Positions 451 through 53,024 of a stretch of DNA of 64,000 bases are shown here, piece after piece; position 1 is the first letter of the stretch; each line of letters opens with the position of its first letter. The notes beneath the pieces are model-generated. The model was not told the origin of the DNA. It did not search any database and saw only the letters and a program-made list of their open reading frames with translations. The stretch spans positions 12,517,525-12,581,524 of the forward strand of contig OY811973.1 in the NCBI GenBank assembly GCA_963681505.1, written 5' to 3'. The translations under genes were made by a program, and so were the position numbers. This DNA is from Eunapius fragilis (taxonomy: Eukaryota > Porifera > Demospongiae > Spongillida > Spongillidae).

Positions 451-597
451 CTTGAAGAGATTCTTAAAGCCAGCAGTGCTGCCTGCCTTTGGTTCTTTAA
501 GCTGGCTGATGGTGTCGGCCATCTTGTTCACAGGGATGGAGGTATCTCCACATGTGATATATTCATCAAGGGCATCATGGATGAACATGTACTGGAC
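451..597 (-). CDS. RPTP exon 12: Q-loop and D1-D2 linker
   Basis: 147-bp phase-0 exon starting [20 protein letters not shown], which holds the Q-loop glutamine, then a linker ending FKNLFK at a GTGAGA donor. Two-domain RPTPs have a similar acidic then FK-rich linker here, so a second domain is expected beyond the window; nothing in 1-450 encodes it. Confidence 0.9.
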
Positions 598-738
598 CTG
601 AGAAGGGGAGGGAGGAAGGAGAGAGAGAGAAGGGAGGTAGGAATGAGAGGGAGGAAGGAGGGAGGGAGGGTGAGGGGGAAGAGTCAATAAGAGAGAACAC
701 GTGCAATTTATGTGAATACATACATGTGAGGATGTGCG

Positions 739-773
<35 letters not shown>

Positions 774-2381
774 CTACATACATGCGTAAATGTATATTGA
801 GAAGAGCACGTGAGCATATGCTAACCCCATGCCACCAGAGCCTTTGAAGGTTTTAACCCTAACTACACTCTGCTCTGCGGTGCAGTGACAATGCTGTACA
901 CAGAGGTACAGAGGTGTGCTGAGGGCTGCACCCAGTGACATACCAAACATGCGGGAGCATAGAACATGGCCACACCCCCACATAACGCCTGTAACCATAC
1001 ATACCCATATTCTACCAAACCACCCCACACAGCTCTTCCCTCTCTTCTTCCACCCCTCCCTCCCTCCACCCCTCTCTCTTCCTTACATCAGCCTGCACAA
1101 GGAGCGGTCTCTTCTTCCTAATAGAGCACACCATCTGGTACACGTTCAGTGTGGTCTCAGTCTTCATCCTCTCCAACATGCTGTCCAATAGGATGAAGGT
1201 ACCTGTGCGCCCCACCCCCGCGCTGCAGTGGACCACCAGGGGGGCGGGGTCAGAGTACGGGTGGACGTTCCTCACCCTCTTGATGAACTGGATCATGCAG
1301 GTCTTGTCAGCAGGCACACCATGGTCTGGCCACACTGTGAAGTGGTAGTGGTTGATACGGAGGGGTGTGGAGGAGGGAGAGGCGGTCTACAGGGGGGAGG
1401 GGAGCAAGGGGAGTTAAGAGGGGAACAAGGGGAGGCTAAAGGGAGGAGTTTAGAGGGGAACAAGGGGAGGCTAAGGGAGGAGTTAAGAGGGGAACAAGGG
1501 GAGGTTAAGGGGAGGTTTAGAGGGGAACAAGGGGAGGTTAAGGGGAGGAGTTAAGAGGGGAACAAGGGGAGGCTAAGAAGGAGTTAAGAGGGGAACAAGG
1601 GGAGGTTTAGAGGGGAACAAGGGGAGGCTAAGGGAGGAGTTAAGAGGGAAAAAGGGGAGGTTAAGGGGAGGTTTAGAGGGGAACAAGGGGAGGCTAAGGG
1701 AGGAGTTAAGAGGGGAACAAGAGTAGGAGTTTAGATTAGAGGTATGAGTCTACAACAAGGTAAGGAGGAGTCAAGGGTAGGGTACATGTAGTAGTAGACA
1801 CAAACAATGACCCACAATGTCATGTCATACATGTATGTTTGGTCACATGAGTCATGAGGTAACATACGTTGGTCACTGTTAACACTTTCAGTCTGTATTC
1901 AACAAATGGTTTCTGTTCCAGCAAGGTGACCCTCAGGTTATGTCCAACGTCCCAACATTCATTGACGTTCTGGGGCCAGTACCTCTCACACTTCAGCTGG
2001 TGTGTGGGCGTGATAAAGGGTGCGGCCATGTGATAGTGTATATGTGATGGTGTATATGTGAGGGTGTGGCCATGTGATAGTGTATATGTGATGGTGTATA
2101 TGTGAGGGTGTGGCCATGTGATAGTGCACATTGCGTATATGTGAGGGTGTGCATTGTTTATATGTGATGGCCATGTGATAGCATACATACATACGTGTAG
2201 TGCATATGTGAGGGTGCGGCCATGGTCATGTGACACAGTACATTATGTAAACACACAGTAACCAGGGATACATTGGCTCTCACCTTTCCTCCCTCCATTA
2301 GTTCTGTGAGCATCACAATGGTGGGGTACCTTTGTTCCCACACCATCCTCCAGAAGTCCGCTATCGTGTTTGGCAGGGGGC

Positions 2382-2424
<43 letters not shown>

Positions 2425-2430
2425 TGTGTG

Positions 2431-2486
<56 letters not shown>

Positions 2487-3100
2487 CGTGTGTGTGTGTG
2501 TGCGCATGTGTGTACATGTGTACTTTAATTACTAGGTATGCACACCAGGGTCATTCAGGTCACATTAGCCACACCCACCTTGTGTGGCAACATAACAGTT
2601 CTGTTTGCCACAGCCCTGAATGTGAGGAAGTCAGCACAATGAACACAGAAAACTGAAAGTGGCCAAATTGCATGTGCAATACTATCAAAGGCCTATCCCA
2701 AACTACACAAACATTCCTCAATCCATACATGTGTGTACACAACACACAACATGTGTACAACACACATAAGGTGCGTAAGGTTTATTGTGGTGTATGGAGA
2801 ATGCACCCATCTGGGGGTAGCATCATGCCCCATTCATCCAGTTATCTCACCTCCATTCAAATCCTTACATGTACATGTACCCCCAACCTCCCCCTAAAGA
2901 TAAAAGATATTGACCTTCCCAGTCCACACCAAGGAAATGTACAGCAGTGTTTGTTTTGGGGTTAATTTTAGATCAGTGCAGAGAGTGAAGGGTGCAATTA
3001 GAGTCCGGGTTTGGATTCGGGACGACACGTTGACCCATCTGGTCGAGTTGAAACCCCCAAAAAACCTGAACTACCATTTTGTTTATCATGTCTAGCTCAT

Positions 3101-3164
<64 letters not shown>

Positions 3165-4517
3165 AAAGGATGGTGGAGTAGGAAGATGGACTTACGTCAA
3201 CATAAGAAGCGTTGATGTAGTCAGAGCCCTCCACCCCTGGGATGGCTGACAGCATCACCCTAGAGCTGTCATCTGTTGCACAGCGGTACAGTTATTAACA
3301 GCAGTTATTAATGGTACCTAGCTACACACGAATACTGCAGCAAACAGTACACTGTAGCTACACACACACACACATGCACACACACACACACAGAGGAACG
3401 CACACGCATATGACATACCATCTCTGTGGATACACGGCATGTATTCAACATAAAACCTGACAGTAGTCATACCTCATATCTTGATAACAAACACACAAGA
3501 GGCGACACAGGAATGTGCTGCTACAACACATGTGTTCAAAAGGGGCATGTGTTGTGGAGACAACACACACTGGTTGTATACACACGTACGTAACTTACAA
3601 GGGTAGATGTTTTCAAATCTGTTCCTTGGAACGTTGTAGGGAAGGCATGATATCTCGTACGGGCCTAGGGGCGCTGTACTGATCGACTGATAGCAAAGGA
3701 GGACATGATGGGGGGCATTTATTAGAGTGCACCCTTTTAAAGTGACATCATTGCAGAAGGGCATACTTGCCTAAAGCATTCTAAAGTAGCATACAAGGAG
3801 CATACCATGCATGTGGACTGACGAGGGCACACATGTGTTCACATAACTACAGTACAGAGGCAACCCCCCCCTTCCCCCCCAAGTGCATACCGTAAACTCC
3901 TCCTCGAAGCCTCTGTTAGCTCCCTCGTGTAGGCTCTTCACATGGGCGGGGAAGTCAGCGATTGGAATGGGCTGGAGACGGGCTGCATGGGAGGGGCAGG
4001 GGAGGGGCCAAGGTGGTGTGTTAACATGCAGCATATTACATGTAACAGTGTGGTTGTCCAGTACACATGTAACAGTGTGGTTGTCCAGTACACATGTAAC
4101 AGTGTGGTTGTCCAGTACACATGTAACAGTGTGGTTGTCCAGTACACATGTAACAGTGTGGTTGTCCAGTACACATGTACTACATACACAAATACACTTC
4201 ATAGTACAAACATAGACCCCCTAATACACAACATACACCCCCTAATACACTTAATCTATTCCACCATATCATGGGAGGTTAGGTTGGAGGGAGGGAAGAG
4301 GGGGTTATTTTCTCTACCATGTAAATTTATCTCTAATTGAGTGTAAGTTTATGACCTTTGTACCTGCACTCAGCATTAAAATGTATTAGAAAAATCAACA
4401 TACACATGTATATGTCTTAGAGTGGCACTTAAGTGTATGTTTTAATTACTACCACATACTAATACCATGTATACAAATGAATGACACACACATGCACACA
4501 CACACATGCACACACAT

Positions 4518-4555
<38 letters not shown>

Positions 4556-6004
4556 TTACCGTTCACGGGCTGGAGCTGGGTCAGCTCAATAGCAGGTGAT
4601 GATGGCGATGCACGTGACTCATTCTCCAGTATGATCTTCCCAGAGCGACTACGACTGATGACAGAGAGTATATCCTCATCCCCAGACCACTAAACCTTCA
4701 TCCCCAGACCACACACTTACCCTAGAACTGCAAAGACAATAACCAACACAAGTAGGCACAGGATGAAGGCCAAACTGCCTCCAACCACACCCCCAATGAT
4801 GGCCGCATTATTTGGTGGTTCTGTGGAAGGGGAGGAGGTAGAGGCCACTACAGAGGAAGTAGCAACAAAGGATGTAGGTGGGGCAGAGGCAGAGATGGAG
4901 ATAGCAGGGGTGGAGATAGCAGGGGTGGAGATAGCAGAGGTGGAGATAGCAGAGGTGGAGACAGTAGGGGTGGAGATAGCAGAGGTGAAGCTAGCAGGGG
5001 TGGAGATAGCAGAGGTGGAGACAGCAGAGGTGGAGACAGCAGAGGTGGAGATAGCAGAGGTGGAGACAGCAGGGGTGGAGACAGCAGAGGTGGAGATAGC
5101 AGAGGTGGAGATAGCAGAGGTGGAGACAGCAGGGGTGGAGATAGCAGGGGTGGAGATAGCAGGGGTGGAGACAGCAGGGGTGGAGATAGCAGAGGTGGAG
5201 ATAGCAGGAGTGGAGACAACTAAGGTGTAGACAGTAGTGGAGACAGTAGAGATGGAGACAGGGGTGGAGATAGCAGGGATGGAGACAGTAGGGGTGGAGA
5301 TAGCAGGGGTGGAGACAGCAGGGGTGGGGGTGGAGTTGTAAACAGCGGTTGGGTCAGGAGTGGAGGCAGCAGAGGTGGGGACAGGTAGAAGACCCCCAGA
5401 GGCGGTAACATTGCTAGTGGTAAGGACTATATCGGTGGTGGAGGGAGGTGCTATCACAGAGAAGGCAGTGAGGGTTTGGCCTGTAAACAGAGAGTGAGAT
5501 ACAGTCAGTAGTATACGGAGCACTCGCCCTGCGAATTACCCACCCTCCTTATCACTCACTCTGTTCATGCATCCAGGCGTAAATTATATGCTCAAAAGCT
5601 TCGCGCGTGCATTGCGGTTGAGGGACCGTTTGGTTCGTTACACAACAGGGGGACATCAGGACATAGAATACAGACCAGCCACCCTCCTAATACTAAGAGC
5701 GACCAAAAACACTCTTCCATCCCTCCGGGTGGTGGTACAAACGTCAACGTAACCTACGTACAAGGTATACGTCGAGACGCACAGACCAAAAAAAAAAAAC
5801 AAAAAAAATCTCTTGGCGTACCGTAGGAGGCGGGGGCCCACTGTCCGCAGAATGCGATAGCAACGAAGGCGACCTGAGCAGGTGGGTATGGAGACAGGTC
5901 TCGGTCACATGAGTAATATAATATTACCGCCACGAATACCACCTTCGTATACACTACTCGCCGATGAGAGTCAAGGAGGAACTTACCCACAGTTTGATCG
6001 CCAT
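451..6004 (-). CDS. Receptor-type protein tyrosine phosphatase, 12 exons (3' part off window)
   Basis: Single-pass receptor phosphatase that should dephosphorylate phosphotyrosine at the plasma membrane. Exons in transcript order: 6004-5987, 5873-5822, 5480-4721, 4654-4560, 3982-3891, 3686-3599, 3272-3196, 2615-2579, 2381-2284, 1996-1868, 1386-1087, 597-451. They sum to 1,893 bp (631 codons); every junction has GT-AG ends and matching phase. Order of parts: signal peptide, mucin-like Ser/Thr-rich ectodomain, TM helix, basic stop-transfer RSRSGK, juxtamembrane wedge, then PTP domain D1. D1 shows RNRFENI (pTyr loop), [28 protein letters not shown] and the Q-loop VQYMF. The linker after D1 resembles that leading into D2 of two-domain RPTPs, so D2 probably lies beyond the left edge. 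The pTyr-loop Tyr of the usual NRY is Phe. The amino-terminal half is shared with the mucin-like receptor family downstream. Family and catalytic assignment are strong; substrate and ligand are unknown. Confidence 0.93.
741..772. repeat. (GT)n microsatellite in RPTP intron
   Basis: Uninterrupted GT dinucleotide run in the last visible RPTP intron. Similar runs occur at 2391-2490 and 3103-3162, also in introns of this gene. Confidence 0.95.
1087..1386 (-). CDS. RPTP exon 11: WPD loop and HCX5R catalytic P-loop
   Basis: 300-bp phase-0 exon. It starts with a Ser/Pro-rich insertion ([10 protein letters not shown]), then [13 protein letters not shown] (general-acid Asp) and [18 protein letters not shown], with nucleophilic Cys and phosphate-binding Arg of HCX5R intact. 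It ends [12 protein letters not shown] before a GTAAGG donor. All residues required for catalysis in this exon are present, so D1 is predicted to be active. Confidence 0.95.
1396..1730. repeat. Purine-rich minisatellite (GAGGGGAACAAGGGGAGG units)
   Basis: About ten imperfect units of roughly 33-36 bp built from GAACAAGGGGAGG and AGGAGTTAAGAGGG. It begins immediately upstream of the acceptor of RPTP exon 11, so one strand gives an extended pyrimidine tract before the splice acceptor. Confidence 0.85.
1868..1996 (-). CDS. RPTP exon 10 (KCERYWP segment of D1)
   Basis: 129-bp phase-0 exon encoding 43 residues starting [10 protein letters not shown], the equivalent of the KCxQYWP motif of PTP domains, and ending LKVLTVTN before a GTATGT donor. 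It joins in phase to exon 11 at 1386. Confidence 0.9.
2018..2190. repeat. Imperfect tandem repeat (GGTGTGGCCATGTGATAGTGTATATGTGA)
   Basis: Imperfect tandem units containing GGCCATGTGATAG and TATATGTGA in the intron between RPTP exons 9 and 10. No gene content. Confidence 0.8.
2284..3982 (-). CDS. RPTP exons 5-9: juxtamembrane wedge and amino-terminal half of PTP domain D1
   Basis: Exon 5 (3891-3982) encodes the wedge segment with [20 protein letters not shown] and GFEEEFT. Exon 6 (3599-3686) carries RNRFENIYP. Exon 7 (3196-3272) completes YDSSRV and [11 protein letters not shown]. Exon 8 (2579-2615) is a 37-bp microexon encoding [12 protein letters not shown] plus one base. Exon 9 (2284-2381) encodes [16 protein letters not shown] and a TELMEGGK end. 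These are the canonical PTP motifs in canonical order. As I recall, a 37-bp exon at this place is also known in vertebrate RPTP genes. Confidence 0.9.
2391..2520. repeat. (GT)n microsatellite with GC interruptions
   Basis: Long GT run interrupted by GCGC steps. It starts directly next to the acceptor of RPTP exon 9; on the transcript strand it reads as CA repeats leading to the CAG acceptor. Confidence 0.95.
3103..3162. repeat. (GT)n microsatellite
   Basis: About 30 uninterrupted GT units in the intron between RPTP exons 7 and 8. Confidence 0.95.
4040..4180. repeat. 27-bp tandem repeat, five copies
   Basis: Five near-identical copies of CATGTAACAGTGTGGTTGTC plus CAGTACA in the intron between RPTP exons 4 and 5. 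The unit is a multiple of three, so spurious ORFs run through it on both strands. Confidence 0.9.
4490..4554. repeat. (CA)n microsatellite
   Basis: CA dinucleotide run with a few ATG interruptions, ending just beyond the donor site of RPTP exon 4. Confidence 0.9.
4721..5480 (-). CDS. RPTP exon 3: mucin-like STSAI-repeat ectodomain and TM helix
   Basis: 760-bp exon. It opens with a unique segment ([16 protein letters not shown]) homologous to the start of the 50432-51964 receptor exon. A run of ST(S/P)A(I/V) pentapeptides follows, encoded by a 15-bp minisatellite (4895-5330) with no Cys and dense Ser/Thr, as expected for an O-glycosylated stalk. It ends with a short linker and a TM helix of about 25 residues (from [10 protein letters not shown] to VFAVLG). 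The exon leaves phase 2. The next acceptor at 4654 completes the codon and supplies RSRSGK, which supports the model and the membrane topology. Confidence 0.88.
5822..6004 (-). CDS. RPTP exons 1-2: signal peptide
   Basis: Exon 1 (5987-6004) encodes only MAIKLW and is followed by a GTAAGT donor. Exon 2 (5822-5873, 52 bp) encodes [17 protein letters not shown] plus one base, giving a hydrophobic signal peptide with likely cleavage near PASYG-Q. The start is chosen because the same 18-bp exon (ATGGCGATCAAA or a close variant) recurs at 17115-17132, 35457-35474 and 53007-53024, each followed by a homologous exon 2. Exon 2 ends in phase 1, matching the phase-1 start of the ectodomain exon. Confidence 0.85.
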
Positions 6005-6017
6005 TCGCTGACGCCTT

Positions 6018-6712: not shown

Positions 6713-6972
6713 TTATATATATAGTTCTGATGCTGATCCATATGCAGTGTTTGTATCGATCTCCATGACAGCTCCTTTTATTGTCATATTAGTGCCCACC
6801 TCATCATGCACAGTGGCAGGATCATCATGTGAACTTGGTTTGTGTGATGTCCCTGTGGACCTTCTTGAAATGTAGCCGAGGACAGAAGCCACCAACACTC
6901 CAAGAGAGAAGGACACCACAAAGGTGACAGAGACTGATACACCAACTGCTGTAGCTAATGGCATAAATGAAT
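6713..6972 (-). CDS. Receptor family copy 1: TM and cytoplasmic-tail exon
   Basis: Last exon of a mucin-like membrane protein; the stop codon is at 6713-6715. The CCCTTCAG acceptor at 6973 gives a phase-1 start, the same in all five family copies. It encodes a short stalk, a TM helix containing SVTFVVSFSLGVLVASVLGY, basic YISRR, and a tail of about 45 residues. In this copy the conserved TVYDEV motif reads TVHDEV, so the central tyrosine is lost, and the carboxyl end differs (SASELYI). A second in-frame acceptor lies 24 bp upstream (6996). Its repeat exon is 7233-7709. Confidence 0.8.
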
Positions 6973-7232: not shown

Positions 7233-7709
7233 CTGTAGAGCAGGACACTGGAGCTAAGACAGCCATAGTGGTCAGGTCTGAAGGTGCCAAGGAGGTGGGT
7301 ACTAAGGAGGTGGAGATAGCAGAGGTGGAGATAGCATGGGTGGAGATTGCAGGGGTGGAGATTGCACCTTTGAAAACAGCAGAGGTGTAGAGAGCAGAGG
7401 CACTTGTGGAGACAGCAGAGGTGGAGCGAGTAGAAGTAGTGACAGTAGAGGTGGAGACAGCACCCATGAAGACAGCAGAGGTGGAGCGAGTAGAAGTAGT
7501 GACAGTAAGTTTGGTGACAGCACCCGAGAAGACAGCAGAGGTGGAGCGAGTAGAAGTAGTGACAGTAAGTTTGGTGACAGCACCCGAGAAGACAGCAGAG
7601 GTGGAGCGAGTAGAAGTAGTGACAGTACGTTTGGTGACAGCACCCGAGAAGACAGCAGAGGTGGGGACATAAGCATTGCGAGTGGATGCTGTGGATTTTA
7701 AGCTCTGGG
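7233..7709 (-). CDS. Receptor family copy 1: Ser/Thr-rich repeat ectodomain exon
   Basis: 477-bp phase 1-1 exon (acceptor AACAG before CCCAGAGC, donor CTACAG before GTACAA). It encodes AQSLKSTAST, then three near-identical blocks of about 60 bp each (SAVFSGAVTKLTVTTSTRST), then shorter STSAI units, and ends ALLAPVSCST-like before the donor. The block design differs from the simple pentapeptide array of the RPTP, but the ends match the other family members. No Cys except near the end. Predicted extracellular, heavily O-glycosylated stalk. Confidence 0.78.
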
Positions 7710-10563: not shown

Positions 10564-11797
10564 CAGAGGCGTAGGAACGTATTTAAGATTGGGGGGGGCC
10601 GACTTTGTAAAAATTATTAGCTACATTCTTTAAAAATATGCAAAAGCATAACATTGTTTAGCCTCTCTTGTGTCATGGTAGATCTTAAATATGTTTTCAT
10701 GTGCTGTAGGGCTAAAAATGTTCTCTCAGCAGTTGCCGAAGTTACAGGAATGGTCATAAACAACTGGAGCAATGAATGATCTTCTCTAAACATATTCTTG
10801 ATCACAAGAGATTCGACATTGAATATATCACATATTGTACGAATTGAGGGCACACTCTTTAGTGAGTGGCTGTATAATGCATTAGACCTCACAACATCTG
10901 GAAGCATGGATAGTTGTACCTGCAGTCGCTCAAGGTTGAGATCTTTGGAATACAGAGTTGAGACTTCATCAGGTAAATGACACGCTTGGCCAATGCAGGA
11001 GTTCAAAATAACTGCTTCAATCTTTGATGTAAGGCAAAAGCCTTTCTGGTCAAATCGCCTTGTCAATTCACCTGGTAAGCTCTCCATTACTTGAAAATAT
11101 TGTACTCTTCTGGGTTTGAAAACCTGTACTGCAATGATCCATCGTGGGATATTTGGTGGTTAATTCTGTTTTACCATCAGCATTTGTTATAAAAGCTTTG
11201 AAATGCTGCTAAATCTCTCTGTCGGACATAAAAGGCTTTAGCTAAGTTGACTGCAATATTTGCATCTTGTGCTGTTATTTGAAGTGTTATGAATAACTGC
11301 TCTGAGGCACTGAACACTAAATGTGCAAGTTTAAAGCCAAAGAATGTTGAAAATTTTCCCATTAATGCATGAAATTCAACAGCTTTTCTACCATATTCAT
11401 CTTTGAATGTTCATTGAGTGCTTCTAGCAAGATTTCATAATTTTCAATCACTGCACTGATAGATGCTGTTCGACAAGTCCATCGTGTTGGGCACAGTGGC
11501 TTTAGACTGCATGGGACTATGTGATGAATTGATATTCTGTCTTTGCAAAGCAGTAAATAAGTGATCTCTTTTTGGTGAGAGCTTTATTAGTCCCACAAGT
11601 TCAGATACCAAGTCAAGAGCATCTCGTACTGGTTTGCTTTGCCGACTTATGTCCTGAAGGCAGAGGTTAATGCAGTGTGCCAGGCAGTGCACTGGAAGAG
11701 CTGCACGTTCTTCTTGAGTAATACGTGCTGCTACTCCACTATAGGGACCAGTCATATATGATGCCCCATCATCAACACTGACTAAGTGGTATTGCAC
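10564..11797 (-). pseudogene. hAT-family transposase relic (ZMYM1-like)
   Basis: Minus-strand fragments in order. 11797-11444 has DGASYMTGPYSGV, then VHCLAHCINLCLQDI and VSELVGLIKLSPKRDHLF, typical of the catalytic region of ZMYM1-like hAT proteins. 11362-11177 is an intervening segment. 11087-10617 ends with IPVTSATAERTFLALQHMKT and YLRSTMTQERLNNVMLLHI, the hAT carboxyl-terminal dimerisation domain. Frames are broken by stops and shifts, so it is not functional. The right edge of the relic (10564) starts with CAGAGGCGTAGGAACG, a hAT-like terminus. The other terminus is uncertain; a CGTTCCTACG at 12036 is a candidate. The duplicated locus near 31525 lacks the element. Confidence 0.8.
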
Positions 11798-16950: not shown

Positions 16951-17132
16951 CATAGGATCCGGAGATGACCGCCCATGATGCAATCGTAACGAAGGTAATC
17001 TGGGCAATTCAGGTGGAGATAGAATTCAACAGATCAAATTAGTAAAAGTAGTACCATACCCATAACTACTGAGCACTATAGCTGTACCCTCAAAACTGCA
17101 ACATAGGAACTCACCCACAGTTTAATCGCCAT
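16951..17132 (-). CDS. Receptor family signal-peptide exons 1-2 (probably of copy 1)
   Basis: Exon 1 (17115-17132) is MAIKLW with a GTGAGT donor. Exon 2 (16951-16999, 49 bp) encodes ITFVTIASWAVISGSY plus one base and has a GTACGT donor, leaving phase 1. The architecture is identical to RPTP exons 1-2. The nearest compatible downstream exon on the minus strand is 7709, about 9.2 kb away across transposon insertions, so linkage to copy 1 is an inference. An orphan 5' end is the alternative. Confidence 0.72.
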
Positions 17133-27340: not shown

Positions 27341-28484
27341 AACATTATTATTAGAACTTCAATCCGCTCTCGCTATATTTGATGATAATGTCAGAGCTTG
27401 CTTCATGGAGTGCACGGCTATTGACTTGTCACCTAACTGCCCAGCTTGGAAGCAAGCCACGCTGAGCTTATCCCATGGCGGTTTGGGCCTTCAATCTGTT
27501 TTCCTCCATTGCTCGGCTGCATACATCAGCTCTATTAGTGCCTCCTTCCCTGACCACATCAATTCACCATACCTCCTCAAGGCCATCAATATTTATAATG
27601 CCCTTGTTTCTCCCGATGAAGCTCTTTCATCAACCTTTGACTCCATCCACACCAATCGACATGTTTTGTCACAGAATCTTGAAGACAAACAGTTTCAATC
27701 TCTCTTCGAATGCAGCACCCTGGCTGACCGAGCCCGACTTCTTTCCGTCTCATCCCCACATGCTAGCTCTTGGTTGCGTGTTACCCCATCACCAGCCTTA
27801 GGCTTGCATTTAACACCATCCGAATGTCAATTTGCCATCAAATGGTGGCTTGGTATTCAGCTATGTGAGCCTGGCTCTGTGTGTGCCCTTTGCCCAACCA
27901 AAGCCCTTGAGGCTCACCACGCCCTAACCTGCAAGAGGGGTAGTGATGTAATTGCGCGTCACAACCCCCTTCGCGACACCTTGCATCAGCTCTTCAAGAG
28001 AGCCTTATACAACCCTAAGGTGGAAGCTGGCAGTGGTCTTGGCCATGACCAGAAACAATCTAGACCTGCAGACATACTAGTCAACAACAACTGGGGCATC
28101 AATGGCAAACCTGCTGCGTTCGACTTATCTGTGTCGTCTCCGCTAAAACCTGACATAGTTTCCGAAGCGGGACACACAGCAGGCTCTGCAGCTTTTGCCA
28201 CAGAACAGCGAAAGATACAAGCAAATTCAGGGATCTGTGAAGAACTAGGCTGGAGTGGCATACCCCTTGTTGTTGAATCATTCGGGGCCTGGGGCCAACT
28301 AGCCTCTAACACATTCAAGAAACTTGCTTCCTGCCTTTCAGTCCAGGTTAACTCCTCCACTTCCACCACTCTGGACAGCATTTATTCCAGACTAAACCTT
28401 TCCCTTGTGCGCTCGAATGCCAGAGCATTTCTTGCAAGGTTAGGTCCCCGTGCTAAAGTCTCAGACCTCTACATAGTTGGTTGA
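27340..28484 (+). CDS. LINE ORF carboxyl-terminal fragment with restriction-like endonuclease features, copy 1
   Basis: Open frame of 359 codons from the first ATG (27405), extending open upstream to about 27343 (LELQSALAIFDDNVRACF), so it is a 5'-truncated non-LTR retrotransposon. After a post-RT region (PAWKQATLSLSHGGLGLQS) comes a zinc-knuckle-like C-x2-C, H-H-x3-C (CALCP, EAHHALTC) and then RPADILVNNNWG and AAFDLSV, similar to the PD-(D/E)xK-type endonuclease of R2/NeSL-like LINEs. The family call is by motif. No reverse transcriptase core is present. A near-identical copy (five residue differences) is at 38906-39985. Confidence 0.75.
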
Positions 28485-28860: not shown

Positions 28861-29480
28861 GAGAACAGGAAATTGTTTGTTTCTCTCTAACCACACCGTT
28901 TTATGACACGGTACCAACGTAGAACTGTAGATCGTTGTGCTCTCATTCCATCGCGATAAAGAGATAAGCGATCCGTTTCTCCGTTGTCCCTCCAGACGCT
29001 AGTGAAGTTTTATTAATGACTTCATCAACCCTCAATCAATCCTATATTGAATCTGCTGCCGCAGGTTCAGATACTAAATTGCTCCATTTATTATGAACGA
29101 TAACGTACGTATTAGCTAAATGCAGCGTGCCCTAGTATATTTAAATAAAGCGTCCGTCCCATGGGTATCGGACTATCGGGCCTGAAGCGGACAGCCCCCC
29201 CCCCCTCCCCTTTCCATAAAGGAATACTGTCGATGGTAGCAATCAGAGATACTTGCTGCAAGTTTGTTTTTTATTTTTTAATCGTAACGAAGATGACCTG
29301 GGCATTCAGGCATGCAAACAAACTAGTAATTTACCTTGTTTCGTTTTGTGCTTTCCTTTTTCTAGGATAAAAATGAGGGTGGGAGGAGCCTTACACTCTC
29401 TCATCCAAGGCAACTGAGATCATGCTTGACACAGTGACTTTTAAAGTTCATGTGCCTTACAGTGCACAGTCAATGTCATA
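28860..29480. other. Segmental duplication with receptor exon-2 relic
   Basis: Same sequence as 40708-41355. Around 29283-29315 (minus) CCCAG then GTCATCTTCGTTACGATT matches the first half of receptor signal-peptide exon 2, followed by a deletion that removes the hydrophobic core and donor, so it is a non-functional relic. A C run lies at 29197-29210. Confidence 0.6.
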
Positions 29481-29487: not shown

Positions 29488-29741
29488 CTACAGTCCTGAT
29501 GCTAATCCATATGCAGTGTTTGTATCCATCTCCATGATAGCTCCTTTTATTGCCCTATTAGTGCACACCTCATCATACACAGTGGCAGGATGAGCAAGTA
29601 AACTTGGTTTGTATGATGTCCCTGTGGACCTTCTTGAAATGTAGCAGAGGACAGAAGCCACCAACACTCCAAGAGAGAAGGACACCACAAAGGTGACAGA
29701 GACAGATACACCAACTGTTGTAGCTAACGGCATAAATGAAT
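29488..29741 (-). CDS. Receptor family copy 2: TM and tail exon
   Basis: 254-bp terminal exon with the CCCTTCAG acceptor, TM helix (VTFVVSFSLGVLVASVLCY), YISRR and a tail with TVYDEVCTN and NTAYGLASGL before the stop. Unlike other copies, no Ser/Thr repeat exon follows upstream: the sequence jumps at about 29855 from the exon flank into the segment that lies beyond the repeat exon in copy 3, a deletion of about 0.9 kb. Since the introns are phase 1, the signal exons at 35294-35474 could splice directly to it, giving a receptor without a stalk. It may also be a pseudogene. Confidence 0.7.
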
Positions 29742-35293: not shown

Positions 35294-35474
35294 CATACAA
35301 TCCGGAGATGAGCGCCCATGATGCAATCGTAACGAAGGTGGCCTGGGCAGTCAGGTGGAAATGGAATTAAACAGATCAAATTAGTAAAAGTAGTACCATA
35401 CCCATAACTATTGAGCACTATAGCTCTACCTTCAAAACTGCAACATAGGAACTCACCCGCAGTTTGATCGCCAT
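35294..35474 (-). CDS. Receptor family signal-peptide exons 1-2 (probably of copy 2)
   Basis: Exon 1 (35457-35474) is MAIKLR before GTGAGT. Exon 2 (35294-35342) encodes ATFVTIASWALISGLY plus one base before GTACGT, leaving phase 1. The nearest compatible acceptor downstream is the TM exon at 29741, with TE insertions between. Assignment to copy 2 is an inference from order and strand. Confidence 0.7.
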
Positions 35475-38360: not shown

Positions 38361-38870
38361 TGATTTCTTACTGCACACGTATCTGTATTAGAACCACAAT
38401 TTATACCATGAATTAAGCAAATGATTTAGTTACAATGTCCACTTGTAGCACTCTCTCCATGATGGATCTTTAATGTGAAGATAAATAAATCAATACTACT
38501 GATAATCAAGATTTATCTGCTCACGACTATTGAACTCAGCTCGTAACTTATGCTTGAATCGATACTTGGATGAGATAATTGTTGCCATCTGTGTACTTAG
38601 ATATGAAAATAGTGTTTCTTTTTGAATCATAAAGAAATCACCTTGGAACAATTACTTGGCTTTTAAGCTTGACAGATGTATTCTCATCTGACACCCGATT
38701 GCAGTGAATAATTAATACTGGTGGAAGCAGCATGTGACCTTCTATAATGTCTAAAGAATTATTACACTTTTCACAACACCTGAAAGAAACAGTAATCACT
38801 TACAGATGTGCCATGGGAAGGTACCTACGTTTGTACTTCCATGTGTGATAATACAGTTGCTTCCAGATTT

Positions 38871-39985
38871 TCGCTATATTTGATGATAATGTCAGAGCTT
38901 GCTTCATGGAGTGCACGGCTATTGACTTGTCACCTAACTGCCCAGCCTGGAAGCAAGCCACGCTGAGCTTATCCCATGGCGGTTCGGGCCTTCGATCTGT
39001 TTTCCTCCATTGCTCGGCTGCATACATCAGCTCTATTAGTGCCTCCTTCCCTGACCACATCAATTCACCATACCTCCTCAAGGCCATCAATATTTATAAT
39101 GCCCTTGTTTCTCCCGATGAAGCTCTTTCATCAACCTTTGACTCCATCCACACCAATCGACATGTTTTGTCACAGAATCTTGAAGACAAACAGTTTCAAT
39201 CTCTCTTCGAATGCAGCACCCTGGCTGACCGAGCCCGACTTCTTTCCGTCTCATCCCCACATGCTAGCTCTTGGTTGCGTGTTACCCCATCACCAGCCTT
39301 AGGCTTGCATTTAACACCATCCGAATGTCAATTTGCCATCAAATGGTGGCTTGGTATTCAGCTATGTGAGCCTGGCTCTGTGTGTGCCCTTTGCCCAACC
39401 AAAGCCCTTGAGGCTCACCACGCCCTAACCTGCAAGAGGGGTAGTGATGTAATTGCGCGTCACAACCCCCTTCGCGACACCTTGCATCAGCTCTTCAAGA
39501 GAGCCTTATACAACCCTAAGGTGGAAGCTGGCAGTGGTCTTGGCCATGACCAGAAACAATCTAGACCTGCAGACATACTAGTCAACAACAACTGGGGCAT
39601 CAATGGCAAACCTGCTGCGTTCGACTTATCTGTGTCGTCTCCGCTAAAACCTGACATAGTTTCCGAAGCGGGACACACAGCAGGCTCTGCAGCTTTTGCC
39701 ACAGAACAGCGAAAGATACAAGCAAATTCAGGGATCTGTGAAGAACTAGGCTGGAGTGGCATACCCCTTATTGTTGAATCATTCGGAGCCTGGGGCCAAC
39801 TAGCCTCTAACACATTCAAGAAACTTGCTTCCTGCCATTCAGTCCAGGTTAACTCCTCCACTTCCACCACTCTGGACAGCATTTATTCCAGACTAAACCT
39901 TTCCCTTGTGCGCTCGAATGCCAGAGCATTTCTTGCAAGGTTAGGTCCCCGTGCTAAAGTCTCAGACCTCTACTTAGTTGGTTGA
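38871..39985 (+). CDS. LINE ORF carboxyl-terminal fragment, copy 2
   Basis: 359 codons from ATG 38906, same content as 27405-28484: CCHC-like knuckle and RPADILV/AAFDLSV endonuclease-like motifs. The five differences from copy 1 include QS/RS, V/I, L/H and I/L. Homology to copy 1 starts abruptly at 38871 inside the LINE and continues past its tail into receptor sequence, so this pair arose by segmental duplication rather than two retrotransposition events. Confidence 0.75.
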
Positions 39986-40707: not shown

Positions 40708-41355
40708 GGAGAATTATTTTAGAACTGGGCACGAGAACAGGAAATTGTTTGTTTCTCTCTAACCACACCGTTTTATGACACGGTACCAACGTAGAACTGT
40801 AGATCGTTGTGCTCTCATTCCATCGCGATAAAGAGATAAGCGATCCGTTTCTCCGTTGTCCCTCCAGACGCTAGTGAAGTTTTATTAATGACATTCATCA
40901 ACCCTCAATCAATCCTATATTGAACCTGCTGCCGCAGGTTCAGATACTAAATTGCTCCATTTATTATGAACGATAACGTACGTATTAGCTAAATGCAGCG
41001 TGCCCTAGTATATTTAAATAAAGCGTCCGTCCCATGGGTATCGGACTATCGGGCCTGAAGCGGACAGCCCCCCCCCCCCCCCCCCTCCCCTTTCCATAAA
41101 GGAATACTGTCGATGGTAGCAATCAGAGATACTTGCTGCAAGTTTGTTATTTATTTTTTTATCGTAACGAAGATGACCTGGGCATTCAGGCATGCAAACA
41201 AACTAGTAATTTACCTTGTTTCGTTTTGTGCTTTCATTTTTCTAGGATAAAAATGAGGGTGGGAGGAGCCTTACACTCTCTCATCCAAGGCAAGATCATG
41301 CTTGACACAGTGACTTTTAAAGTTCACGTGCCTTACAGTGCACAGTCAATGTCAT
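40708..41355. other. Segmental duplication with receptor exon-2 relic
   Basis: Counterpart of 28835-29480. The exon-2 relic is at about 41163-41193, again missing its second half, so the deletion predates the duplication. Confidence 0.6.
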
Positions 41356-41363: not shown

Positions 41364-41611
41364 CTACAGTCCTGATGCTAATCCATATGCAGTGTTTGTA
41401 TCCATCTCCATGATAGCTCCTTTTATTGCCCTATTAGTGCCCACCTCATCATACACAGTGGCAGGATCAGCATGTGAACTTGGTTTGTATGATGTCCCTG
41501 TGGACCTTCTTGATATGTAGCAGAGGACAGAAGCCACCAACACTCCAAGAGAGAAGGACACCACAACAGAGACAGATATACCAACTGTTGTAGCTAACGG
41601 CATAAATGAAT
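41364..41611 (-). CDS. Receptor family copy 3: TM and tail exon
   Basis: 248-bp terminal exon from the CCCTTCAG acceptor. The TM helix is shortened by two residues (SVSVVVSFSLGVLVASVLCY). The tail has YISRRSTGTSYKPSSHADPA, TVYDEVGTN and NTAYGLASGL before the stop. The repeat exon 41871-42425 lies 260 bp upstream in matching phase. Confidence 0.8.
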
Positions 41612-41870: not shown

Positions 41871-42425
41871 CTGTAGAGCAGGACGCTGGAGCTAAGACAG
41901 CCATAGTGGTCAGGTCTGAAGGTGCAAAGGAGGTGGAGATAGCAGAGGTGGAGACAGCAGAGGTGGAGATAGCAGAGATGGAGATAGCAGGGGTGGAGAT
42001 AGCAGGGGTGGAAATAGCAGGGGTGGAGATAGCAGGGGTGGAGACAGCAGAGGTGGAGATAACAGAGGTGGAGATAGCAGGGGTGGAGATAGCAGAGGCG
42101 GAGATAGCAGGGGTGGAGATAGCAGAGGTGGAGATAGCAGAGGTGGAGATAGCAGAGGTGGAGATAGCAGAGGTGGAGATAGCAGAGGTGGAGATAGCAG
42201 GGGTGGAGATAGCAAAGGGGGAGATTTTGGCTGAGGCCCTTGTGGAGACAGCAGAGGTGGAGCGAGTAGAAGTAGTGACAGTAGAGGTGGAGACAGCACC
42301 CATGAAGACAGCAGAGATGGAGCAAGCAGAAGTGGTGACAGTAAGTTTGGTGACAGCACCCGAGAAGACAGCAGAGGTGGGGACATAAGCATTGCTAGTG
42401 GATGCTGTGGATTGTAAGCTCTGGG
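41871..42425 (-). CDS. Receptor family copy 3: STSAI-repeat ectodomain exon
   Basis: 555-bp phase 1-1 exon. It starts AQSLQSTASTSNAYVPTSAV, has one SGAVTKLTVTT block as in copy 1, then about 20 [10 protein letters not shown] pentapeptides (15-bp units), and ends with the family APASCST before GTATAA. All Ser/Thr/Ala/Pro/Ile: a predicted O-glycosylated stalk. Signal-peptide exons for this copy were not found; a second repeat exon (43185-43451) lies upstream. Confidence 0.78.
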
Positions 42426-43184: not shown

Positions 43185-43451
43185 CTGTAGAGCAGGACGC
43201 TGGAGCTAAGACAGTCACAGTGGTCAGATCTGAAGGTGCAGAGAAGGTGGAGATAGCGGAGGTGGAGACAGCAGAGGTGGAGATAGCAGAGGTGGAGACA
43301 GCAGAGGTGGAGACAGCAGAGGTGGAGATAGCAGAGGTGGAGACAGCAGAGGTGGAGCGAGCAGAAGTGGTGACAGTGGAACTGGAGACAGCACCCGAGA
43401 AGGTGGGGACACAAGCATTGCTAGCAGATGCTGTGGATTGTAAGCTCTGGG
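43185..43451 (-). CDS. Receptor family copy 4: STSAI-repeat ectodomain exon
   Basis: 267-bp phase 1-1 exon (89 codons), starting AQSLQSTASASNACVPTFSG and containing about 11 [10 protein letters not shown] units. It has no TM exon of its own: downstream is the copy-3 repeat exon. Because both are symmetric phase 1-1, the two could be spliced in series or as alternatives in one transcript, adding or removing stalk length. It could also be an orphan from tandem duplication. Confidence 0.7.
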
Positions 43452-45106: not shown

Positions 45107-45384
45107 CTACAGTCCTGATCTTAATCCATATGCAGTGTTCATATCCATCTCCATGACATCAACCTTGATTTTCTTATTATTGTCCACCTCATCATACACA
45201 ATGGCAAGATCAGCATATGAACTTGGTTTGTATGATGTCCCTGTGGACCTTCTTGAAATGTAGCAGAGGACAGAAGCCACCAACACTCCAAGAGAGAAGG
45301 ACACCACAAAGGTGACAAAGACAGATACACCAACTGCTGTACCCATGGCTGAACCAACTGCTGTAGTTAACAGCATAGATGAAT
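45107..45384 (-). CDS. Receptor family copy 5: TM and tail exon
   Basis: 278-bp terminal exon. The older-looking acceptor at 45408 would be out of phase, but the CCCTTCAG acceptor at 45385 gives the correct phase 1. It contains an extra TAVGSAMG repeat before the TM helix (VTFVVSFSLGVLVASVLCY), then YISRR and a tail with IVYDEVDNN (the -2 Thr changed to Ile) and NTAYGLRSGL before the stop. More diverged than copies 2 and 3. Confidence 0.78.
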
Positions 45385-45695: not shown

Positions 45696-45962
45696 CTGTA
45701 GAGCAGGACACTGGAGCTAAGACAGCCATAGTGGCCAGGTCTGAAAGTGCAGAGGAGGTGGGTACTAAGGAGGTGGAGCTAGTAGGGGTGGGGACAGCAG
45801 GGGTGGAGACAGTAAGGGTAGAGACAGCAGGGGTGGAGATAGCAGAGGTGGAGATAGCAGAGGTGGAGCTAGCAGAAGTGGTGACAGTAAAGGTGGAGAC
45901 AGCAGGGATGGAGACAGAAGTGATGGGGATGGAGACATTAGAAACACTGCCAGTGTTAAGGC
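45696..45962 (-). CDS. Receptor family copy 5: Ser/Thr-rich ectodomain exon
   Basis: 267-bp phase 1-1 exon using the TCCTCAG acceptor at 45963. It encodes GLNTGSVSNVSIPITSVSIP, a TVTTSASST block and [10 protein letters not shown] units, ending APVSCST before GTACAA. Signal-peptide exons were not identified; 46.0-49.9 kb shows none. Confidence 0.72.
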
Positions 45963-47879: not shown

Positions 47880-48235
47880 GCACAATTTATATGGCAATGT
47901 GCCCGCACTCCTCAAAGTGGTACTGCAGATGGTATGAAACTAAAAGTTGCATCACCTCCCAAAGCGGAGATGTTTGATTATGCATATTAAAGGAGTCACG
48001 TCCACAAAGCTTAAGCAACAGTTTGCCCTGAGATGGTGGAGTGATACAACTGAGAATGCAATTGCCATCATGTAACAATACTACACATTCTGCAGTGTCC
48101 CCTATCGCAGTGCACTAGCTCATGGACATTTTCTTCCTCTTCATCACATGGTATCACTTTTGAGCGAGCAGCTTCTCTCTCTTCTTCTATCCATCGATTG
48201 GTCAACATCTGATGACAAAGTTGCAAACAAAATTG
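47880..48235 (-). other. Coding-like minus-strand segment, unrecognised
   Basis: Minus strand reads MLTNRWIEEEREAARSKVIP, then CDEEEENVHELVHCDRGHCR, then after a stop a 63-codon frame (LHDGNCILSCITPPSQGKLL). Codon content looks protein-like but the frame is interrupted. No family recognised; possibly a transposon-derived pseudogene. Confidence 0.25.
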
Positions 48236-48261
48236 AGTCATGGTCTAATAATGCAAATTAT

Positions 48262-49311
48262 GATCAGTGATGTCATGCCCTCATCCATATGATACAGTGA
48301 TGTCATGTCCTCATCCATACGATACAGTGATGTCATGTCCTCATCCATATGATACAGTGATGTCATGTCCTCATCCATATGATACAGTGATGTCATGTCC
48401 TCATCCATATGATACAGTGATGTCATGTCCTCATCCATACGATACAGTGATGTCATGTCCTCATCCATACGATACAGTGATGTCATGTCCTCATCCATAC
48501 GATACAGTGATGTCATGTCCTCATCCATATGATACAGTGATGTCATGTCCTCATCCATATGATACAGTGATGTCATGTCCTCATCCATATGATACAGTGA
48601 TGTCATGTCCTCATCCATACGATACAGTGATGTCATGTCCTCATCCATACGATACAGTGATGTCATGTCCTCATCCATATGATACAGTGATGTCATGTCC
48701 TCATCCATATGATACAGTGATGTCATGTCCTCATCCATATGATACAGTGATGTCATGTCCTCATCCATATGATACAGTGATGTCATGTCCTCATCCATAC
48801 GATACAGTGATGTCATGTCCTCATCCATACGATACAGTGATGTCATGTCCTCATCCATATGATACAGTGATGTCATGTCCTCATCCATATGATACAGTGA
48901 TGTCATGTCCTCATCCATATGATACAGTGATGTCATGTCCTCATCCATATGATACAGTGATGTCATGTCCTCATCCATATGATACAGTGATGTCATGTCC
49001 TCATCCATATGATACAGTGATGTCATGTCCTCATCCATGTGATACAGTGATGTCATGTCCTCATCCATGTGATACAGTGATGTCATGTCCTCATCCATGT
49101 GATACAGTGATGTCATGTCCTCATCCATGTGATACAGTGATGTCATGTCCTCATCCATGTGATACAGTGATGTCATGTCCTCATCCATGTGATACAGTGA
49201 TGTCATGTCCTCATCCATATGATACAGTGATGTCATGCCCTCATCCATATGATACAGTGAGGCCATGTCCTCATCCATATGATACAGTGATGTCATGTCC
49301 TCATCCATGCT
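48262..49311. repeat. 30-bp minisatellite, about 35 units (TGATGTCATGTCCTCATCCA)
   Basis: Highly homogeneous 30-bp array: CAGTGATGTCATGTCCTCAT plus CCATAYGATA. Variants occur mainly at one dinucleotide (AT, AC or GT before GATACAG) and come in blocks, with six consecutive GT units at 49021-49200. Each unit contains TGATGTCA, one base from the CRE palindrome. Because 30 is divisible by three, all frames tend to stay open (decapeptides MDEDMTSLYH and MSCPHPYDTV); no start context or splice signal supports translation. Confidence 0.97.
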
Positions 49312-49319
49312 TTACATTT

Positions 49320-49910: not shown

Positions 49911-49913
49911 ATG

Positions 49914-52900
49914 CTACAGTCCTGATGTTAATCCATATGCAGTATTCATATCCATCTCCATGGCACCACCCTTCGTCTTCTTATTAGTGCCCACCTCATC
50001 ATACACAGTGGCAGGATCAGCATGTGAACCTGGTTTGTATGATGTCCCTGTGGACCTTCTTGAAATGTAGCAGAGGACAGAAGCCACCAACGCTCCAAGA
50101 GAGAAGGACACCACAAAGGTGACAGAGACAGATACTGTAGTTAATAGTATAGGTGAACCTGAAGGGGATGTAACCATTAACTGTTAAAATAACTACAGAT
50201 AACTCATGATCCTGCAGTGTACTTGTGGTACTTTCATGCTTCTTCATGTTATAATGCTAACTATGTACATTGCAGGGGTTTTGTAATCAGAAGCCAGTCC
50301 CATGCATAATGTGTAAGCAGTTAATCTCTGTCCCAGACCTAGTTTATAGTGGGATGCATTCTCAAAGTGGTGGCATGGCTTTGGGATGAACTTGGCCTGG
50401 GGCTGAGACCATTTGAATGTGAACTCTGTACCTGTAGAGCAGGATGCTGGAGCTAAGACAGTGGAAGTGAGGGTCACGGTCATGACAGAGGGTGCAGAGG
50501 AGGTGGGTACTAAGGAGGTGGAGACAGCAGAGGTGGAGATAGCAGAGGTGGAGACAGCAGAGGTGGAGACATAAGAGGTGGGGGTAGCAGTGGTGGAGAC
50601 AGCAGAAGTGGAGATAGCAGAGGTGGAGACAGAAGAGGTGGAGACAGAAGAGATGAAGACAGCAGAAGTGGAGATAGCAGAGGTGGAGATAGCAGAGGTG
50701 GAGACAGCAGAGGTGGAGATAGCAGAGGTGGAGATAGCAGAGGTTGAGGCAACAGATGTGAAGTCAGCAGAGGTGGAGCTATCAGAGGTAGAGAGAGCAG
50801 AGGTGAAGTTAGCAGAGGTGGAAACAGCAGAGGTGGAGATAGCAGAGGTGGAGACAGCAGAGGTGGAGACATAAGAGGTGGGGGTAGCAGTGGTGGAGAC
50901 AGCAGAAGTGGAGATAGCAGAGGTGGAGATAGCAGAGGTGGAGACAGAAGAGATGAAGACAGCAGAAGTGGAGATAGCAGAGGTGGAGATAGCAGAGGTT
51001 GAGATAGCAGAGGTGGAGATAGCAGAGGTGGAGATAGCAGAGGTGGAGATAGCAGAGGTTGAGGCAACAGATGTGAATTCAGCAGAGGTGGAGCTATCAG
51101 AGGTAGAGAGAGCAGAGGTGAAGTTAGCAGAGGTGGAAACAGCAGGGGTGGAGCCATCAGAGGTAGAGAGAGCAGAGGTGAAGCTAGTAGAGATGGAAAC
51201 AGCAGGAGTGGAGATAGCAGAGGTGGAGACAGAAGAGGTGGGGGTAGCAGTGGTGGAGACAGAAGAGGTGGAGATAACAGAGGTGGAGACAGAAGAGGTG
51301 GAGACATAAGAGGTGGGGGTAGCAGTGGTGGAGACAGAAGAGGTGGGGGTAGCAGTGGTGGAGATAGCAGAGGTGGAGACAGAAGAGGTGGAGACAGAAG
51401 AGGTGGAGACAGCAGGGGTGGAGACAGCAGAGGTGGAGATAGCAGCGGTGGAGATAGCAGAGGTGGAGATAGCAGGGGTGGAGATAGCAGGGGTGGAGAT
51501 AGCACAGGTGGAGGCAACAGATGTGAATTCAGCAGAGGTGGAGCCATCAGAGGTAGAGAGAGCAGAGGTGAAGTCAGCAGAGGTGGAGACAGCAGGGGTG
51601 GAGTCATCAGAGGTATAGAGAGCAGAGGTGAAGCTAGCAGAGGTGGAAAAAGCACGGGTGGAGATAGCAGAGGTGGAGATAGCAGAGGTGGAGGCAACAG
51701 ATGTGAATTCAGCAGAGGTGGAGCCATCAGAGGTAGAGAGAGCAGAGGTGAAGTCAGCAGAGGTGGGGATAGCAGAGGTGGAGACAGCAGGGGTGGAGAC
51801 AGCAGGGGTGGAGATAGCAGAGGTGGAGACAGCAGGGGTGGAGATGGCAGGGGTGAAATCATCAGAGGTAGCAAGAGCAGAGGTGAAGTCATCAGAAGGG
51901 GAGACATATGTTGAGGTAGTGGTAAGAGTGCAGGGAGATGCTATAACAGAGGCAGAGATCTGGGCTGTAAATAGGGAGAGATACAGTTAGTATACGGAGC
52001 ACAAATGCTCTTGTGCTGCGTATTATCCACCTATAATATCACTCCGCATGCACTAAGCAAAAATGGATACACTCACACTGTTATGCTGGGGGGGGGGGGG
52101 CACAAATTGATTCTTAGTGTTTTTACATAACATCATCGTACATCATCAAGGATTGAACACTGACTCCACCCCTGCACATTGTATCCGTATCAATAATACA
52201 ATGGACGTTTTGAGAGTGCGCCTTGTCTCCATAATAATCTAAACATAGTTTTCACGGCACAGTTTAATATTTCCGCCGCATAGTAATAATTAAATCTATG
52301 ACAAACGCATGCCTGGCCAGGTAGCCCCCGCGGGGGCCCCCTCTCCTTAAAAATGTTTCTCAGCATGCCGTCTGGTAGTATATTTAAGCGTAATTCACTC
52401 TCAAGTAATAAAAGTTTATTTTACAACATTAGCAGTTGCCAAAAAGAAACCAGCATGATTATTCATGAGCTATTCAAACCTTGCGGCAGCTTATGAATAC
52501 ATCAGTAATGCACGCAGAACAACAATTGAATTCGCCACGCTAGATATATTACATGTATTACCCGGCGACCATAGATATTGATGTATAGATAGCCAGTGAG
52601 TGGAAATCTTCAAACTTTAAACTCTCAATGATACTGAATACTCTAGACTGGTAATACCGACTCTACCATGGTGCTGACCTTACTCGAACTCACGCGATCG
52701 AGTTCTTGTCTTCAGTGAGGACTATAATAACTCTCCTATTATTTTATAGCAATCAAGCACGCGTGAAGCAATGGCATACAAGCATACTAGACAAATTACA
52801 AAAAAAAAACACTTGAGGGGTTGAGGTGGCAATCTTTGGTTTGATGACGTACCGTGAGAGGCGTGGGCCCACTGTTGTCTGAACCATACGATAGCAAGGA

Positions 52901-53024
52901 AGACGACCTGAATAGGTGGGGATGAAGCGGGTCAGATTTAGTATCGCCACGCCTACTACCTTTGTATACCCCGAGATGTACCCATACGGAGCTATATAGA
53001 ACTCACCCACGGTTTGATCGCCAT
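49914..53024 (-). CDS. Mucin-like single-pass receptor, complete four-exon gene (copy 6)
   Basis: Exons 53024-53007 (MAIKPW), 52907-52853 (VVFLAIVWFRQQWAHASH), 51964-50432 (1,533 bp, phase 1-1) and 50158-49914 (TM and tail) sum to 1,851 bp: 616 residues and a stop. Every junction is GT-AG with matching phase. Order: signal peptide with likely cleavage near HASHA-Q; short unique region (QISASVIASPCTLTTTSTYV) homologous to the RPTP; about 90 ST(S/P)A(I/V) pentapeptides; SCSTG; TM helix (VSVTFVVSFSLGALVASVLC); YISRR; tail with TSYKP, TVYDEVGTN and NTAYGLTSGL. Predicted plasma-membrane, heavily O-glycosylated, with tyrosines that could recruit SH2 proteins; TVYDEV fits TxYxxV. Function is unknown. 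The repeat exon also has a PLLSP frame without stops, but only the STSAI frame connects signal and TM exons. Confidence 0.82.
50432..51964 (-). repeat. 15-bp coding minisatellite of copy 6
   Basis: GCAGAGGTGGAGATA-type 15-bp units; the array also has a higher-order period of roughly 300 bp, seen as repeated blocks starting near 50570 and 50870 (GGGGGTAGCAGTGGTGGAGA). The unit keeps frame, so length changes alter stalk length without breaking the protein. Confidence 0.9.
51970..52850. other. Receptor copy 6 intron 2
   Basis: Non-coding. 51975-52030 is homologous to RPTP intron 2 next to the ectodomain exon (5500-5550: CAGTTAGTATACGGAGCAC), which supports common descent of the two genes including introns. 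A G run is at 52088-52100. Confidence 0.65.

Follow-up and report, generated by a model that had tools for sequence, protein, structure and literature searches.

A leader and mucin-like array common to a putative receptor-type tyrosine phosphatase and tyrosine-tailed receptors in the freshwater sponge Eunapius fragilis

Clustered receptors with homologous outer halves are known from the mammalian paired receptors (KIR, LILR and SIRP), in which tails with the immunoreceptor tyrosine-based inhibitory motif (ITIM) stand against short forms with a charged transmembrane (TM) segment. Among the receptor-type protein tyrosine phosphatases (RPTPs), CD45 (PTPRC) carries a mucin-like outer part before its phosphatase, also has FN3 domains and works as a size-sorted phosphatase. 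In invertebrates, the Hydractinia Alr and Botryllus fester co-receptors are clustered and have tails with ITIM, hemITAM (hemi-immunoreceptor tyrosine-based activation motif) or YxxI/L/V motifs (PMC12065747), and an R3-type RPTP has been described from a sponge (PMC5336234). Here, we report a 64-kb stretch of the genome of Eunapius fragilis (chromosome C3:12,517,525-12,581,524; hereafter the window, numbered from its first letter), in which the gene of a putative RPTP and a cluster of mucin-like receptor genes (units A, B, C, C′, D and E, and a further receptor, N, just outside) have leader and ectodomain exons in common to differing extents.

Compared with the R2A RPTPs (LAR, PTPRS and PTPRD), the sponge RPTP is likewise predicted to be a TM protein; the closest solved structures to its protein tyrosine phosphatase (PTP) domain are PTPRS and PTPRF, and the alignment with PTPRS continues past the first PTP domain (D1) into the linker. 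It differs in its outer part and in one PTP loop, where NRF replaces the usual NRY. The Pfam and solved-structure comparisons were made with a 633-aa draft of the protein (two extra residues at exon joins), and no Ig, FN3 or other folded-domain match was found in it outside the PTP part at E up to 0.1. The Ig plus FN3 ectodomain of the R2A/LAR type is thus missing from the exons seen, and a Ser/Thr-rich array stands in its place. The mucin-like part before a receptor phosphatase recalls CD45, but the PTP domain scores 485.6 bits against PTPRS (both domains) and 325.5 bits against CD45. Like KIR, LILR and SIRP, the locus has clustered genes with homologous 5′ halves and differing cytoplasmic parts; unlike them, one partner would itself be a phosphatase, and an Ig domain is lacking in the shared part. 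The clustered Hydractinia and Botryllus allorecognition receptors resemble the sponge receptors in their tyrosine tail motifs, whereas the Botryllus family ectodomains are of Ig/Sushi type, and no RPTP sharing their ectodomain is described in the accessible part of the source (PMC12065747). The sponge tail motif YDEV equals two sites listed for mouse nephrin (PMC3237483), a comparison of the motif alone; nephrin YDxV sites bind Nck (PMC12203975). In the open-licence PubMed Central literature, we saw no description of an RPTP whose ectodomain exons recur in tail receptors. To our reading of that literature, it is the RPTP side alone that is new; ITIM/hemITAM-type allorecognition tails have already been described there (PMC12065747).

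The RPTP gene and the shared module

The RPTP gene comprises 12 exons (6004-451, minus strand), which join into a frame of 631 aa without a stop; all 11 introns are GT-AG, and all phases match. Receptor E (53024-49914, 616 aa) is a complete and compact four-exon gene with GT-AG introns in phase. Receptor N (C3:12,604,919-12,602,328, 455 aa), just outside the window, is also a complete four-exon gene with GT-AG introns in phase. Both follow one plan, i.e., two leader exons, one large array exon and one TM+tail exon. The exons of the RPTP and of receptor E are the following:

5987..6004, minus strand: RPTP exon 1, 18 bp, leader MAIKLW
5822..5873, minus strand: RPTP exon 2, 52 bp, rest of the putative signal peptide, phase-1 end
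5482..5523, minus strand: 3′ end of RPTP intron 2, resembling 51966-52002 of receptor E
4721..5480, minus strand: RPTP exon 3, ectodomain opening, array and TM segment
4654-4560, 3982-3891, 3686-3599, 3272-3196 and 2615-2579, minus strand: RPTP exons 4-8
2381-2284, 1996-1868, 1386-1087 and 597-451, minus strand: RPTP exons 9-12
53007..53024, minus strand: receptor E exon 1, MAIKPW
52853..52907, minus strand: receptor E exon 2, 55 bp
50432..51964, minus strand: receptor E exon 3, Ser/Thr-rich array of ~510 aa
49914..50158, minus strand: receptor E exon 4, TM segment, TVYDEV tail and stop codon

The order of parts in the RPTP is a putative signal peptide (exons 1-2), the ectodomain opening, a Ser/Thr/Pro/Ala array (S+T is 41% over exon 3), the TM segment followed by RSRSGK, the juxtamembrane part and the PTP domain. 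Exons 4-12 (451..4654) encode the juxtamembrane part and D1, and the last of them opens the linker between D1 and D2; past window position 1 come 5000 bases of N, perhaps an assembly gap, which hide any second PTP domain (D2). The short exon at 2615-2579, which was spotted by eye, completes the PTP domain. In this 12-exon genomic model, the receptor-type PTP architecture (putative signal peptide, ectodomain, TM segment and PTP domain) is found in one gene. The PTP domain matched Pfam Y_phosphatase with an E of 1e-75 and contains the WPD loop, the HCX5R loop and the Q-loop; judging from these motifs, it is catalytically plausible.

The 5′ half of this gene resembles that of the receptors exon by exon. 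Exon 1 has 18 bp and reads MAIKLW, MAIKPW or, in unit B, MAIKLR. Exon 2 varies in length (RPTP, 52 bp; E and N, 55 bp; A and B, 49 bp), and each of its five copies has a phase-1 end. The ectodomain openings of the RPTP and the receptors, including AQISASVIASPC, were read in the joined gene models. In BLAST comparisons within the window, the RPTP and receptor E were 93% identical over 29 bp at exon 1 (E 1e-6), 78% over 83 bp at exon 2 with its flanks (E 1e-13) and 77% over 74 bp at the end of intron 2 with the ectodomain opening (E 6e-8). Between leaders, identity was 83-84% for the RPTP against E/N, 67-69% for the RPTP against A/B and 55-57% for A/B against E/N.

Genome searches covered 218,937,333 bp in 24 contigs. 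A DNA search with the whole module found the query alone, and short patterns were used instead, with the same pattern reversed serving as the chance control in the same genome. The 30-mer of exon 1 and its donor (up to three mismatches) had five matches in 219 Mb, all of them at the locus (control 0). The exon-2 24-mer (up to three mismatches), modelled on the RPTP/E/N form and not expected to match the A/B form, had three, again all at the locus (control 0). A 34-base array pattern gave 30 exact, partly overlapping matches, spread over C3:12,522,536-12,602,961 (control 0): 11 in E, 7 in the RPTP, 6 in C, 5 in C′ and 1 in N, with none in A and D. All matches of the three patterns fall inside 83 kb on C3. 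Because the exon-1 and array patterns are limited genome-wide to these 83 kb, the likeness between the RPTP and the receptors exceeds that of low-complexity repeats. A similarity confined to such repeats, which an earlier note on this DNA had named as the outcome that would overturn its proposal, was rejected, since exon 1, exon 2 and the end of intron 2 are alike outside the array. The other anatomical claims of that note agreed with these results: the same 18-bp first exon, a homologous second exon of 49-55 bp, a common phase-1 junction, a homologous ectodomain opening, common STSAI arrays (RPTP, C, C′, E and N) and a similar intron next to the ectodomain exon (5482-5523 versus 51966-52002). 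The sequences support descent from a common ancestor for the 5′ halves of the two gene kinds, RPTP and receptors.

Receptor units and the origins of the two 3′ halves

Within the window, E is the only tail-bearing unit that is both compact and complete. The exons of the other units are the following:

17115..17132, minus strand: receptor A leader exon 1
16951..16999, minus strand: receptor A leader exon 2, 49 bp
7233..7709, minus strand: receptor A ectodomain exon 3
6713..6972, minus strand: receptor A TM and tail exon 4, motif TVHDEV
35457..35474, minus strand: unit B leader exon 1, MAIKLR
35294..35342, minus strand: unit B leader exon 2, 49 bp
29488..29741, minus strand: unit B TM and tail exon
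41871..42425, minus strand: unit C ectodomain exon 3, open, phase 1 at both ends
41364..41611, minus strand: unit C TM and tail exon 4, TVYDEV
43185..43451, minus strand: extra ectodomain exon C′, open
45696..45962, minus strand: unit D ectodomain exon 3
45107..45384, minus strand: unit D TM and tail exon 4, IVYDEV

Receptor A has all four exons, but with a 9.2-kb intron. Its leader at 17.1 kb is tied to the array exon at 7.7 kb because A and B are colinear duplicates, with at least eight blocks over ~10.6 and 6.1 kb. A C-terminal piece of a hAT transposase (Pfam Dimer_Tnp_hAT) lies at 10620-11159 within this long intron. Exon-2-like fragments were seen at 29280-29310 and 41161-41190, below the tails of B and C, with no recognisable exon 1 adjoining.

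The core of the tail is SRRSTGTSYKPSSHADPATVYDEV. Its motif reads TVYDEV in B, C, E and N, IVYDEV in D and TVHDEV in A, i.e., the YDEV tyrosine is present in five of the six tails. By sequence, YDEV is a YDxV-type site. TVYDEV also fits the consensus of the immunoreceptor tyrosine-based switch motif or the ITIM, which we take to be TxYxx[V/I] or [SIVL]xYxx[ILV], and the tail motif may suit several SH2 readers. The genome has 70 SH2 matches, from which it follows that putative readers exist and nothing more.

A query with the receptor TM+tail exon gave 92 genome matches on seven chromosomes, namely C3 (12.1-14.0 and 2.3-2.9 Mb), C6, C20, C1, C8, C7 and C16; those on C8, C7, C16 and C1 at 13.9 Mb were only ~39-48% identical. 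The frames around the exon were scanned at three loci. An Ig region at L016 and an FN3 domain at L022 were found no more than 1.5 kb away from it; two adjacent frames at L038 had no Pfam match. Because the TM+tail exon occurs in many other genes, the mucin receptors read as mosaics of both neighbourhoods, with a leader and array in common with the phosphatase and a tail in common with a large receptor family. The earlier note had contrasted the TM and cytoplasmic parts of the two gene kinds. The contrast of a PTP domain with YDEV tails stands, but the tail exon is not particular to the pair.

The motif was compared in 28 tail copies, i.e., the 30 best-scoring of the 92 matches without L037, in which the frame ends early, and L017, in which the anchor word lies at an upstream site; being drawn from the best matches, this sample is biased toward similar copies. 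The motif tyrosine was kept in 27 of them, D at Y+1 in 25, E at Y+2 in 27 and V at Y+3 in all 28. The codon pattern of TVYDEV had 21 genome matches (reversed control 6), 20 of which lie in listed tail exons on C3 (16) and C6 (4), the remaining one being elsewhere on C8. None was found in the tail exons of C8, C7, C16, C20, C1 or C3 at 2.3-2.9 Mb, which suggests that the motif belongs to a single branch of this family. Among the 30 best copies, ungapped identity was 91-98% over ~120 bp and had dropped to the background level within 150-200 bp in both directions; gapped BLAST alignments spanning the tail had a median of 231 bp at 90% identity, some being much longer. This island looks like the recent homogenisation of an exon-sized unit, resembling gene conversion of a constant signalling exon.

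For the other 3′ half, a protein search of the genome with the RPTP exons gave at least 125 matches (114 of 393 candidates scored). Elsewhere in the genome, the catalytic exon (residues ~205-310 of the query) matched at 40-54% identity; most of these matches fall in the large C10 cluster of PTP exons, with single ones on C22 and C14, and short pieces of other exons reached up to 69% over 36 residues. Among the candidates scored, no close relative of the PTP exons was seen, and a recent origin of the RPTP by copying out of the C10 phosphatase cluster was rejected given this identity of 40-54%. The TM/juxtamembrane query had three matches, two of which were the query itself; the third was weak (35%, E 2e-4) and lies at C10:450845, a short way upstream of same-strand PTP exons (C10:452-454 kb). 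Because this weak relative precedes PTP exons, the 3′ half of the RPTP is probably RPTP-derived. An FN3 query from L022 gave at least 150 matches (150 of 264 candidates scored) and among them none on C10, and so there is no sign of the C10 phosphatases sharing that one domain. The C10 cluster of PTP exons (5.5-8.45 Mb) is very large: PF00102 had 192 matches in the genome, and most of the 150 listed are on C10.

Explanations of the shared 5′ half

Based on the above results, we suggest, as a moderately probable explanation, that a leader-array module was joined to two 3′ halves and may place the phosphatase and the docking receptors in the same membrane zone. A single leader-plus-mucin-array module (exons 1-2, the intron borders, the start of exon 3 and the STSAI array) would have been joined, by local duplication or unequal recombination, to an old LAR-like phosphatase gene on the one hand and, on the other, to a TM+tail exon that belongs to a large family of sponge receptors. 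The same kind of signal peptide would bring both kinds of protein to the surface, where the similar Ser/Thr-rich rods may lead to their sorting into shared membrane zones. YDEV could then be phosphorylated by a tyrosine kinase, Nck-type SH2 adaptors could dock at the phosphorylated site and act on actin, and the adjacent RPTP could take the phosphate off and thereby set a threshold. These functional steps are weaker than the anatomical part of the explanation, which comprises the shared module, confined to this locus, the gene models of the RPTP, E and N with open frames and matching phases, the intact PTP motifs and the tyrosine of YDEV in five of six tails, all of which the sequence shows. 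A bolder extension would make this a recognition locus, in which the same leader and mucin rod on a phosphatase and on phosphotyrosine-docking receptors form a reader-eraser threshold device in the membrane, the tails serving as exchangeable modules within a family of ~100 receptors, some with FN3 or Ig; we consider it unlikely.

The strongest alternative is a neutral by-product, in which tandem duplication and gene conversion spread the leader and array with no joint function and several receptor units are decaying. We regard it as a real possibility, though short of probable, and most of the points that weigh against a functional module speak for it. Parts are missing or changed in A, B, C, C′ and D: the A tail has lost its tyrosine to H (TVHDEV); in B, which has a leader and a tail, an ectodomain (array) exon was sought and none was found; neither BLAST in the window nor the exon-1 pattern in the genome revealed a leader belonging to C, C′ or D. 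Segmental duplications run across 27-45 kb. The six tails at the locus have a pooled ratio of nonsynonymous to synonymous differences per site (pN/pS) of 1.13 (15 pairs), with no purifying selection seen. In the 40-codon tail core of the 28 copies, pN/pS is 0.79 (above 1 in 99 of 309 pairs) and pS is 0.06; such a low pS points to homogenisation rather than long constraint. The NRF loop of the RPTP also counts against a functional module.

The regions before the leaders point the same way. In a comparison of 600 bp before each ATG of the five leaders (606 for N; the B slice ended 6 bases short of the ATG, with the same outcome), the RPTP had no BLAST match to the other four beyond the bases next to the ATG, while E and N shared 35 bp and A and B shared 28 bp. 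The upstream regions being unlike, a shared promoter is not indicated, and shared regulation was dropped as a candidate. Two points weigh against a neutral by-product: the frames of E, N and the RPTP are open throughout and their splice phases correct, and exons 1 and 2 of the RPTP still resemble those of E although their first introns, for the most part, and the regions before the ATG have diverged.

If the sharing is functional, recombination of their outer parts would have linked a phosphatase with a docking receptor in a sponge, beyond the Ig-based receptor systems known in other animals. Even if it is neutral, the locus shows sponge receptors combining leader/ectodomain exons with TM+tail exons in more than one way, and such joining is one of the ways in which a large receptor repertoire can form. 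It is worth noting that freshwater sponges can be grown from gemmules.

True paired receptors, with the RPTP and the mucin receptors binding one ligand through the shared ectodomain and sending opposed signals, e.g., in tissue recognition, were the reading of the earlier note. The clustered genes, homologous 5′ halves and different tails fit it, as do the ITIM/hemITAM-type tails in the Hydractinia and Botryllus allorecognition loci (PMC12065747). However, the genes have no homologous folded ligand-binding domain in common. The mature part common to the RPTP and the receptors comprises ~11 residues and a Ser/Thr/Ala array without a recognisable ligand-binding fold, as the signal peptide is presumably cleaved; the array composition varies from gene to gene, and the tail exon is common to many other genes. 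We therefore hold true paired receptors to be quite unlikely. The same ligand with opposite signals is a possible hypothesis which goes beyond the evidence, since the shared part is so limited and the upstream regions are unlike.

It is also conceivable, though we judge it very unlikely, that the leaders at 53.0, 35.5 and 17.1 kb are spliced alternatively to downstream pairs of exons 3 and 4, which would make C, C′ and D cassettes and not dead genes. The array exons of all three are open with proper splice phases and have kept their AG acceptors and phase-1 GT donors, and the tails of C and D are open. However, little weight attaches to open frames within a 15-bp repeat, and the exon after C′ is another ectodomain exon and not a tail exon. 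Finally, a gene-model error, by which the leader and array-TM exons at 6.0-4.7 kb would be a receptor with a lost tail and the PTP exons a separate gene, is highly improbable: the frame read on beyond the exon-3 donor meets a stop at once, so that a short form without the PTP part is possible, but all 11 introns are GT-AG and in phase, a basic stretch and then a canonical PTP start follow the TM segment, and the weak TM/juxtamembrane relative on C10 lies just upstream of other PTP exons.

Neighbourhood of the locus

Below the RPTP, the frames at L043:2472-2963 and L044:8119-8556 encode an FN3 and a Sushi domain, which indicates that the mucin units lie inside a wider receptor cluster. Two near-identical long open reading frames (ORFs; 98.7% at the DNA level) are found at 27342-28481 and 38852-39982, below the duplicated units B and C. 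By eye, they are retroelement-like; the first had no Pfam match at 0.01. On the plus strand, an ORF that looks by eye like an integrase core is followed by a Ulp1-type protease (Pfam Peptidase_C48) at 55538-58112, and these ORFs are probably a mobile element. In addition, a 30-bp repeat in 35 copies (48259-49308) is open in frames on both strands and is not tied to the receptor exons.

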